From Bacteroidales bacterium (GTDB lineage Bacteria; Bacteroidota; Bacteroidia; Bacteroidales; UBA932): a stretch of 64,000 nucleotides of DNA. Of the stretch, positions 45,195 to 47,673 are shown piece after piece. The position numbers and the translations under genes were made by a program. The stretch covers positions 1 through 64,000 of the forward strand of contig JAFSOA010000017.1 in NCBI GenBank assembly GCA_017447265.1, in the 5' to 3' direction. Positions within the stretch are counted from its first letter, which is position 1. Every line of letters starts with the position of its first letter. The notes below the pieces were generated by a model that made no database searches, was not told the DNA's origin, and saw nothing but the letters and a program-made list of their open reading frames with translations.

Positions 45195-45608
45195 TCAGAA
45201 TAACAAGGTTCGGGTTTGGGCGTCTTCCACCTGGATCTGCACCTTGAGCGTGTCTTCAGGCAGCAGCTCTTCGATCATCTCGGGCCACTCGATCAGGCAG
45301 CGGTCTCCGGAATCGAAATACTCGTAGAGGCCTATGTCGAGCGCCTCGGAGAGACGGTTGATGCGGTAGAAATCAAAATGATAGACCGGCTCGCCGCGGC
45401 GGTCCCGGTATTCGTTGACGATGGTGAACGTCGGGCTGTTGACCACGTCGCGTACGCCGAGGGCTTCGCAGACCGCCGTGATGAAGGTCGTCTTGCCGGC
45501 TCCCATCGCGCCGTAGAAAGCCACGATGCGCGCCTCGCCGATGTGCGCCAGGAACGCTTCCGCCGCCCGGGGCAGGTCCGCTGTGCCGTTGATGATGATT
45601 TCGGTCAT
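45195..45608 (-). CDS. tsaE: tRNA t6A biosynthesis ATPase TsaE
   Basis: The 137-residue ATPase has a Walker A GAMGAGKTTFI near residue 38, the SPTFTIVNEY motif, and YHFDFYRIN with the Walker B-like aspartates. TsaE is the ATPase of the TsaB-TsaD-TsaE complex that installs t6A on tRNA. It is the first gene of the namZ-GH18-ROK-MFS-SIS operon, a housekeeping gene heading a catabolic unit. Its ATG lies 7 bases after a TATCTTTG box, so the message is nearly leaderless. Confidence 0.94.
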   Translation of the reverse strand: MTEIIINGTADLPRAAEAFLAHIGEARIVAFYGAMGAGKTTFITAVCEALGVRDVVNSPTFTIVNEYRDRRGEPVYHFDFYRINRLSEALDIGLYEYFDSGDRCLIEWPEMIEELLPEDTLKVQIQVEDAQTRTLLF

Positions 45609-45623
45609 ATCTTTGCAAAGATA
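45608..45623. promoter_or_regulatory. Palindromic double -7 box between tsaE and feoB-like gene
   Basis: TATCTTTGCAAAGATA is a perfect 16-bp palindrome made of two back-to-back TATCTTTG boxes. The minus box (45616-45623) drives tsaE with an ATG 7 bases on; the plus box (45608-45615) points to the FeoB-like gene but overlaps the tsaE start codon by one base. Confidence 0.6.
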
Positions 45624-45647
45624 ATAATTATCACTATTTGTTGGTAT

Positions 45648-45677
45648 TGCCTCTTCCGTAAAAATCGGTCATCTTTG
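45648..45677 (+). promoter_or_regulatory. Candidate promoter of the FeoB-like gene
   Basis: A TTG at about 45647-45649 is followed after about 20 bases by CATCTTTG (45670-45677), one mismatch from TAnnTTTG, ending 4 bases before the ATG at 45682. Spacing fits the Bacteroidota -33/-7 arrangement. Confidence 0.45.
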
Positions 45678-45681
45678 CTGC

Positions 45682-47673
45682 ATGAATTGTAATTTCAATT
45701 GTAGCGAATGTGAACTGGCTGCGAAGGGAAACAAACGCATCCTGGTCGATGTCATCGGCCACGAGCCGGAAGGCGGGATGCTGTCCTTTTCGGGCCGGCA
45801 CCATTTGACAGTCGAGTTCGGTGAATATCTCATCTGTTTCGTCAATCACTGCGGAGAGGATGTCCATATCGGCAGGAAGATTATCTCCACGAAACCTGCC
45901 GTCGTGTTGGACGTTATCGATTCCATGTCGCTGCAAAACAGCCTCAGGCTCACTTCCAGGCTAATCGATATGGATTACCGGGCCGTGCTCGCCTTTTCCG
46001 CTTACGACCGCCTGCTGGCTACCGGGCATTCCCTGGATTACGAGACCCTCGGCGAGATGATGGGCTTTGCGTCAACGGTCCTGGACGCGTCCGAGGAAAG
46101 TTTCAGCAGGCTGCTTTCCCTGATCGTCGAGACCTATCGCCAGCCGGTCAAGAAACACGTCCACGTGCCCTATGGCCAGGATGTGGACAAGGCCATCGAA
46201 AAGATTACCGCCCTGATCTCCCGTTCGCCCGGGCTGTCGAACCGTTACCACGACCGCTATCTGGCCGTCCGCCTGCTGGAAGATCCCGAATACATTTCCC
46301 CGCTTCTGGAAGGTTCTCCGATGGCATCCCGGATTGTAGAAGCCGCCCGCGCGGAATCCCGGGCCCTTACCCGACAACTCGAAGAAAGTCCGGAAACCCT
46401 GATCCGGAAAGCGCGCCACGGTTATATCCACGGCGCACTCGTCGAAACCCTCCACCACAGTTCAGACCATTCGGACCATACCCTTCTTCAAAAGATAGAC
46501 GCCGTCCTGACCAACCGCGTGATCGGCCTTCCGCTGCTGCTCGTGGTGCTTTTCCTGGTCTTCGAAGCCACCTTTGCCCTCGGCGCCTGGCCGCAGCAGT
46601 GGATCGAAGACGGCGTGGAGATCCTGTGCGCCTGGCTGGCGGGCGTGCTGCCGTCCGGCTGGCTGACCAGCCTGCTGGTCGACGGCGTCGTGCAAGGTTG
46701 CGGAGCCGTCATTTCCTTCCTCCCGAACATCTTCATCCTCTTTGTGCTGCTTTCCCTGCTGGAAGACACCGGCTATATGGCCAGGGCTGCCTTCCTGATG
46801 GACAAGATCATGCACAGGATCGGCCTTCACGGCAGGTCGTTCGTGCCGATGCTGCTCGGTTTCGGATGCAACGTGCCGGCCATCATGGCCGCCAAGTCCA
46901 TAGACAATCCGAAAGACAGGACGCTGACGATGCTGATGATCCCGTTCATGTCATGTTCTGCCAGAATTCCGGTGTACCTGCTGTTTGTCGGCGCCTTTTT
47001 CGCCCACAGCAAGGCCCTGGTGATGATGGGCATTTACCTGGCCGGCGTGCTGCTGTCCATCCTCTTCGCCATCATGATGAAGCGGACGAAGTGGTTCCGG
47101 AAGGAAGCCGACGATTACGTGTCGGAGCTTCCGGCATTCCGCAAGCCCACGCTCAGAAGTACATGGAGCCATGTCTGGGAAAGGACTTCGGACTATCTTC
47201 ACAAGATCACGACGGTCATCCTCGCGGCATCGGTCATCATCTGGGCGCTGGAGTTTTTCCCGAGGGAAAGGACGATGGACGGGAAATACAAAGAAGAATC
47301 CTACCTGTGTGACATCGGCAAGGGGTTGGAACCCGTGATGAAGCCGCTGGGGTTCGACTGGAAACTGAACGTCTGCCTCCTTACGGGACTCCCGGCCAAG
47401 GAAGCCATTGTCAGCACGATGGGTATTCTCTACCATACGGAAGACGACGAGTCTCTCACCCGTGCGATGACCGAAGGCGAGGGCATGAACCAGGCGGTGG
47501 CCCTTGCCTTCCTCCTGTTCGTACTGCTGTACTTCCCCTGTGTCGCCACGATTACGACGCTCCGGAAAGAAACGGGGTGGAAATGGGCGGCTTTCACGGT
47601 AGTCCATTCGCTTGTTCTGGCCTGGCTGGTTGCTTTTCTGGCCTTCCGCGTCGGCAGTTTGTTCATCGGATAA
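45682..47673 (+). CDS. FeoB-type metal transporter with degenerate GTPase domain
   Basis: The 663-residue protein has the complete FeoB membrane domain from about residue 270: Gate motifs LLGFGCNVPAIMAAKSI and PFMSCSARIPVYLLF with their pore cysteines, GLPAKEAIVSTMGILY, and YFPCVATITTLRKETGW. The N-terminal 190 residues align with a FeoB G domain from VVLDVIDSMSLQNSLRLT onward. The P-loop, switch and DxxG parts are gone, and the base-specificity NxxD reads SAYD. In place of GNPNxGKT the sequence has VIGHEPEGGML. The N-terminus carries Cys 3, 7 and 10 (MNCNFNCSEC). It may move Fe(II) or Mn(II) without normal GTP control. No feoA is adjacent. Confidence 0.85.
   Translation: MNCNFNCSECELAAKGNKRILVDVIGHEPEGGMLSFSGRHHLTVEFGEYLICFVNHCGEDVHIGRKIISTKPAVVLDVIDSMSLQNSLRLTSRLIDMDYRAVLAFSAYDRLLATGHSLDYETLGEMMGFASTVLDASEESFSRLLSLIVETYRQPVKKHVHVPYGQDVDKAIEKITALISRSPGLSNRYHDRYLAVRLLEDPEYISPLLEGSPMASRIVEAARAESRALTRQLEESPETLIRKARHGYIHGALVETLHHSSDHSDHTLLQKIDAVLTNRVIGLPLLLVVLFLVFEATFALGAWPQQWIEDGVEILCAWLAGVLPSGWLTSLLVDGVVQGCGAVISFLPNIFILFVLLSLLEDTGYMARAAFLMDKIMHRIGLHGRSFVPMLLGFGCNVPAIMAAKSIDNPKDRTLTMLMIPFMSCSARIPVYLLFVGAFFAHSKALVMMGIYLAGVLLSILFAIMMKRTKWFRKEADDYVSELPAFRKPTLRSTWSHVWERTSDYLHKITTVILAASVIIWALEFFPRERTMDGKYKEESYLCDIGKGLEPVMKPLGFDWKLNVCLLTGLPAKEAIVSTMGILYHTEDDESLTRAMTEGEGMNQAVALAFLLFVLLYFPCVATITTLRKETGWKWAAFTVVHSLVLAWLVAFLAFRVGSLFIG

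Follow-up and report, generated by a model that had tools for sequence, protein, structure and literature searches.

Whether the GTPase of FeoB powers iron uptake or merely gates it is an old puzzle. In the accessible parts of the papers concerned, NFeoB activity is stated to be essential (PMC10353542), and the G domain is described as needed, yet as hydrolysing GTP too slowly to power active transport, which constitutes a conundrum (PMC4847171). For the FeoAB fusion of Bacteroides fragilis, in which GTP hydrolysis is exceedingly slow, it has been argued, again in the accessible text, that the protein is a GTP-gated channel (PMC8980893). From a protein that already hydrolyses GTP so slowly, loss of the gate would be a short step. 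The window analyzed here, a 64,000-nucleotide stretch of Bacteroidales DNA, raises the question of whether that step has been taken. The original prediction, made from the sequence alone, was that one of its genes encodes a FeoB whose membrane domain is kept and whose GTPase active site is lost. Based on the analyses described below, we consider, with a probability of roughly 0.7, that such GTPase-free FeoBs are metal importers that work without nucleotide, and that the GTPase is a gate and not a motor. No report of a FeoB without GTPase was found in the literature as searched by title and start of abstract, a search that took in few subscription papers and no bioRxiv preprints, nor was such a case found in the accessible part of a paper on Feo evolution (PMC8749426).

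The window gene and what is left of its G domain

The gene runs from ATG to stop at positions 45682–47673 of the forward strand (as do all of its features below), as judged from the open reading frame and profile matches, and encodes 663 amino acids. By descent it is a FeoB, and its membrane domain is intact. When checked against FeoB families, as had been proposed, the protein scored 411.7 bits with TIGR00437 (cut-off, 315.65), and Pfam placed FeoB_Cyto, the cytosolic helical domain (46171–46452), FeoB_C (47023–47184), and Gate, in two stretches, above their cut-offs. Gate 1 (46708–46998; Pfam and alignment) contains Cys396 and Cys425, and Gate 2 (47203–47580; alignment) contains Cys620, so that Pfam, TIGR00437, and alignment agree on the two Gates and conserved pore cysteines originally noted. 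Gate-type membrane segments are common to this protein and to Gate-domain proteins of the PRK10519 type, but its score with the latter model is just 17.4 bits, against a cut-off of 111.

The FeoB_N match, on the other hand, covers profile positions 62–144 of 156 only. Motif search and alignment revealed neither a GxxxxGK[ST] P-loop nor a DxPG (DxxG) motif in the window protein, the switches are gone, and SAYD stands at the place of the guanine motif NxxD, all as first described. The further claim, that nucleotide binding had eroded within a retained fold, is correct for one half of the domain. Residues ~71–135 (45892–46086), which include SAYD and a clade-specific His116, align well with NFeoB, including, in the proposed comparison with NFeoB structures (by sequence), the solved NFeoB 3k53. 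The claim fails for the first half, residues 21–70 (45742–45891), where the P-loop, switches, and DxxG belong: it is shortened, eroded, and barely recognizable as a G domain, and from beta-1 to the VVLDVID segment the window protein falls ~26 residues short of L016, a canonical relative, by manual count on the alignment. Preceding it is an N-terminal tail of 20 residues (45682–45741), with the expected cysteines at positions 3, 7, and 10 (CxxxCxxC).

Since the records are mostly metagenome-assembled genomes, an assembly error that removed the P-loop, or a pseudogene, had to be considered. However, 20 relatives' loci, nearly all of them metagenome-assembled genomes from different animals, align with the window protein from residue 1 or 2 at 51–91% identity (best segment). 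Because these relatives carry the same N-terminus and the same loss, misassembly is excluded. A pseudogene is likewise at odds with the intact frames and with the substitutions, which are purifying in the membrane part and the G remnant, and we give an artifact or pseudogene a negligible chance. Values of dN/dS estimated from ten close relatives are 0.07 (membrane part), 0.08 (G remnant, residues 71–135), 0.11 (residues 136–265), 0.21 (residues 21–70; 95%, 0.13–0.31), and 0.29 (residues 1–20; 95%, 0.11–0.63); for the stub forms described below, the ratio is undefined, owing to saturation. The view that an intact frame of 663 codons reflects a selected protein is thereby upheld.

The same constraint bears on the idea that transport itself has been lost, leaving a metal sensor, a scaffold, or a gene in slow decay. 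That the missing part is described as essential, and that shortening happened repeatedly, would fit such a loss. Yet it is the membrane domain that is under the strongest constraint, frames are intact across the clade, and the pore residues are kept: Cys396, Cys425, and Cys620 are invariant in a 52-row alignment and occur in 36/36 clade A, 13/13 G-less, and 57/57 canonical rows. We therefore regard a loss of transport as very unlikely.

Clade A and other GTPase-free lineages

Relatives were taken from a scan of species genomes (the best 80 of 175 related places), to which the window protein and two more proteins were added. On the membrane domain alone, 36 rows including the window form one clade (clade A; support 100), so that homologues with the same loss do exist as a clade, the point on which the original prediction had asked for a check; L014 and L047 are identical across the membrane domain used for the tree. 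All members have intact reading frames, and they constitute a graded series that begins with a relic P-loop and ends with the G domain absent. L074 and the later-found L183 keep the P-loop and have lost the switches and DxxG, the P-loop is broken in L062 and L063, window-type members have none, a group of ~500 amino acids (L066, L067, L069–L071, and L075) has only a G-domain stub, and L081 (378 amino acids) has no G domain at all. DxPG occurs in 0/36 members, as opposed to 80/80 canonical proteins; the canonical set was chosen by its P-loop, so that its 80/80 P-loops are true by definition, which is not the case for the DxPG count. With a P-loop at the right place only in L074 and L183 of clade A, an intact GKT in all homologues, the observation named in advance as contrary, was not what we saw. 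When the alignment was read by eye, GSGLSGKT in L058 proved to be a chance match off the motif column, and three matches to the NxxD pattern in clade A were likewise chance, being out of line with the motif. His116 is present in 35/35 clade A remnants, and in the 80 canonical proteins the residue at this position is usually Asp (43) or Ala (18); this, together with a dN/dS of 0.08, suggests that the G remnant does something.

Further lineages have membrane domains only. Clade B comprises 15 rows in the loop comparison (below), of 396–487 amino acids as called, and clade C consists of tail-less proteins of 409–410 amino acids, found in three genomes that belong to a different family; GTPase-free FeoBs also occur singly, as L137 and L182. 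Approximately unbiased (AU) tests, run on a chosen subset of 58 rows with the groups known beforehand, rejected A, B, and C as a single clade (p = 0.0007) and B and C as a single clade (p = 0.024). With a common clade of all three rejected, the trees indicate that the GTPase was lost independently at least two times. A and B come together in three trees (support 92–98) and apart in the tree of the 36-row clade and in a 132-row tree; in trees without long branches, a single origin of the two appears favored. L182 may join A and B (p = 0.50), and is not firmly separated from C (p = 0.058). In an order sample of 295 genomes, at least eight (G000, G010, G030, G186, G267, G315, G316, and G334) carry a GTPase-free FeoB confirmed by reading. 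Rows were left out as truncated at contig ends or fragmented (L138, L117, L136, L184, L185, and L191), as very divergent (L142 and L192), or as duplicates or re-fetches (L149, L150, L163, L172, L193, L194, L189, L014, L078, L082, and L090); most of L097–L122, a surplus outgroup, was removed before counting, the 132-row tree was also made without L139–L141, L105, and L094, and G378 (311 amino acids) lies outside the set of proteins read.

It had been suggested that the Cys-rich start might serve as a new gate, which as a general explanation does not hold. CxxxCxxC lies within the first 60 residues in 19/36 clade A members, and just past residue 60 in L065; shorter clade A forms are without it. 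Clade B proteins mostly have a His-rich N-terminal tail of at least 23 residues instead, although the gene models of L128 and L130 include almost no tail.

Gene neighborhoods were also compared. The window FeoB gene is separated by a 73-base gap (45609–45681; open reading frame list and upstream alignment) from a diverging gene at 45195–45608 of the reverse strand, which, from reading its sequence, we take to be tsaE, and the gene's own neighbors gave no iron hint. Clade B genes (L123–L130 and L132–L135) occupy one conserved chromosomal place, with the same gene family upstream in 12/12 loci and a second shared family downstream in 11/12; from their sequences, these are presumably dxs and tuf, respectively. 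Some clade A members do have neighbors related to iron: a Fur-family gene lies upstream of L069, L070, L071, L075, and L081 (for L069 alone, by Pfam), and L064, L066, L067, and L081 are followed by a gene of the TonB-receptor family (Pfam on three of the four). Inspection by eye of ten upstream regions revealed no clear Fur box. Between the Fur-family gene and the stub FeoB of L069 sits a putative neutral zinc metallopeptidase (PF04298; L069:4997–5695), and the same gene order is repeated in L070, L071, and L075.

Genomes without a second FeoB GTPase

The original prediction also proposed to check whether a normal FeoB is encoded elsewhere. None was found in the window's own genome (78.7% complete), and the same was true of 24 others. 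A search with the G domain of a canonical Bacteroidales FeoB detected no second FeoB-type G domain in 25 genomes that have only GTPase-free FeoBs (19 of them ≥90% complete). The best match outside the FeoB gene had an E-value of 3.7e-11, and with the same query three canonical genomes gave 1e-41 to about 1e-67 and two genomes with split FeoBs gave 1e-40 and 1e-38; matches in the 24 genomes besides the window's were judged by score and open reading frame length only. That the window's genome encodes a free-standing FeoB G domain was also dismissed, as six of the matches are Der, MnmE, Obg, YchF, EngB, and HflX (NCBIfam), and one further weak match (C4, 20.6 bits) lies under the cut-off. FeoA, fused or separate, was found in 0/25 of these genomes, the window's (78.7% complete) included, and in 7/7 canonical-only genomes. 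Given that FeoA is fused to FeoB in canonical genomes, its absence and the loss of the GTPase may be one event.

These results bear on whether an unrecognized NTPase or other partner in trans gates or powers the membrane domain in place of the FeoB G domain. The conserved G remnant with its invariant His116 could be a docking surface, and split FeoBs with a separate G-domain gene do occur in the phylum. Against such a partner, a FeoB-type G domain is absent from 25/25 genomes, no partner gene common to clade A neighborhoods was found, and in the stub and membrane-only forms the remnant is shortened or wholly missing. With the evidence from the loop described below added, we judge this explanation quite unlikely.

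A genus sample of 25 genomes, all ≥85% complete except the window's own, has a FeoB membrane domain in 25/25, at exactly one place in 23. The forms differ, as if one substitutes for another: four are of window type, six are clade B by length and kinship (one cut by a contig end), fourteen are open reading frames of 779–848 amino acids (G015, G034, and G052 among them were read), and one, G106, is in pieces; G103 combines a clade B gene with a divergent FeoB that has a P-loop. Exclusion between forms is not strict, since L050 and G029 carry a GTPase-free FeoB alongside a canonical one, and the two forms may have different jobs in L050, G029, and G103, where GTPase-free and P-loop FeoBs are paired. 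In L050, a reindeer-associated genome, the window-type FeoB (L050:5998–7986) and the canonical FeoA–FeoB (L050:9850–11961) are <2 kb apart. The latter is followed by a hemerythrin-domain protein (L050:11991–12674), relatives of which adjoin FeoB in L070, L075, and L131.

Such coexistence is what one might expect if these transporters had switched cargo, say to Mn2+ or a different ion, and had shed the GTPase along with the switch; Mn2+ FeoBs are mentioned in the accessible part of PMC8749426. Nevertheless, clade A retains the three pore cysteines and 83/97 canonical-conserved membrane positions, and in many such genomes it is the only FeoB and Nramp is absent (Nramp was found in 0/18 genus genomes searched). 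A change of cargo is thus unlikely in our opinion. ZIP genes are present in 10/16 genomes searched, some of each FeoB form, and could also import metal there.

The PFVMELPPYR loop and a proposed nucleotide-free importer

Among 111 membrane positions conserved in ≥90% of the 80 canonical proteins, ten make up the loop PFVMELPPYR, which in the window protein reads DYVSELPAFR (residues 478–487; 47113–47142; alignment). Clade A has lost 5/10 loop positions versus 6/101 elsewhere (Fisher 7e-4), and clade B 7/10 versus 17/101 (Fisher 8e-4); since these two clades (B then including L137) led to the choice of the loop, both p-values are after the fact. L137 has lost 6/10 versus 16/101 (Fisher 0.004). 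Clade C (7/10 versus 10/101; Fisher 5e-5) and L182 (6/10 versus 18/101; Fisher 0.007) were found after the loop had been picked, as were the split forms. In clade B, stretch 357–371 is altered nearly as strongly as the loop. A divergent canonical group (L139–L141) has lost 1/10 loop positions versus 26/101 elsewhere, and the divergent P-loop FeoBs L142 and L192 have lost 7/10 and 4/10 versus 57/101 and 52/101, respectively, which is neither an excess nor a special retention.

Split FeoBs provide a further comparison. A search of the phylum gave, among the matches listed, at least 16 FeoB-like membrane proteins of ~475 amino acids. In the eight that were read (L195–L202, Bacteroidota), a separate and complete G-domain gene (254–293 amino acids) lies directly upstream in 8/8, and the loop is retained as F(S/N)LELPPYRPP in 8/8. 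As split FeoBs keep the loop and GTPase-free lineages lose it, the loop appears to go with the G domain, whether the latter is fused or encoded apart. Most simply, the loop would receive the signal of the G domain and would thus be the coupling element between G domain and pore. Its loss here, in the face of its retention in split FeoBs, also speaks against a partner in trans. The loop region (Core CFeoB) has been discussed as a putative metal-binding site, in the accessible text of PMC11920956; a necessary role of that kind is disfavored, given that the loop is lost where the pore is kept.

We return to the reading that these proteins import metal without nucleotide. The membrane domain would carry a divalent metal, most likely Fe2+, inward with no nucleotide cycle, and uptake would follow the metal gradient and the membrane potential. 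Starting from an ancestral FeoA–FeoB fusion, the G domain may have lost its switches and DxxG first and its P-loop afterwards; in sister lineages it was reduced to a stub or to nothing, with FeoA gone too. The membrane part has lost the conserved loop, which presumably lets the G domain open the pore, but has kept its pore residues unchanged, and control may have shifted to gene expression or to the new tails, which look metal-binding. The fuller proposal, to which we give even odds, is that the membrane domain alone is a complete gradient-driven importer, that the GTPase is a removable gate acting via PFVMELPPYR which Bacteroidales dropped at least twice, and that in some lineages Cys- or His-rich tails are present instead, sensing or taking over metal.

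Some gut bacteria keep the membrane half of FeoB under strong selection without a GTP switch that has been described as essential, and natural GTPase-free FeoBs, occurring in genomes in which a search gave no other FeoB, make the question of power versus gate directly testable. The loop comparison offers a specific candidate for the coupling element, and the shortest forms, at ~380–410 amino acids, a small membrane protein for structural studies; when solved structures were searched by sequence, none proved to be related to the membrane domain.

How, then, does the window type compare with known systems? With canonical FeoB and the FeoA–FeoB fusions of Bacteroidales it shares both Gates, FeoB_C, the helical domain, and the pore cysteines; it differs in being without P-loop, switches, DxxG, NxxD, and FeoA, and in its altered PFVMELPPYR. 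Split FeoBs resemble it as membrane proteins with no fused G domain, but they have the upstream G-domain gene and the loop, and the window type has neither: no separate G-domain gene was found beside the window FeoB or in the search of its whole genome. Finally, pseudo-GTPases such as those of septins and p190RhoGAP, as far as the accessible literature describes them, similarly retain a GTPase-like domain that has lost nucleotide binding. In the window case, however, the lost GTPase is the part that controls a transporter, and sister lineages have dispensed with the domain entirely.
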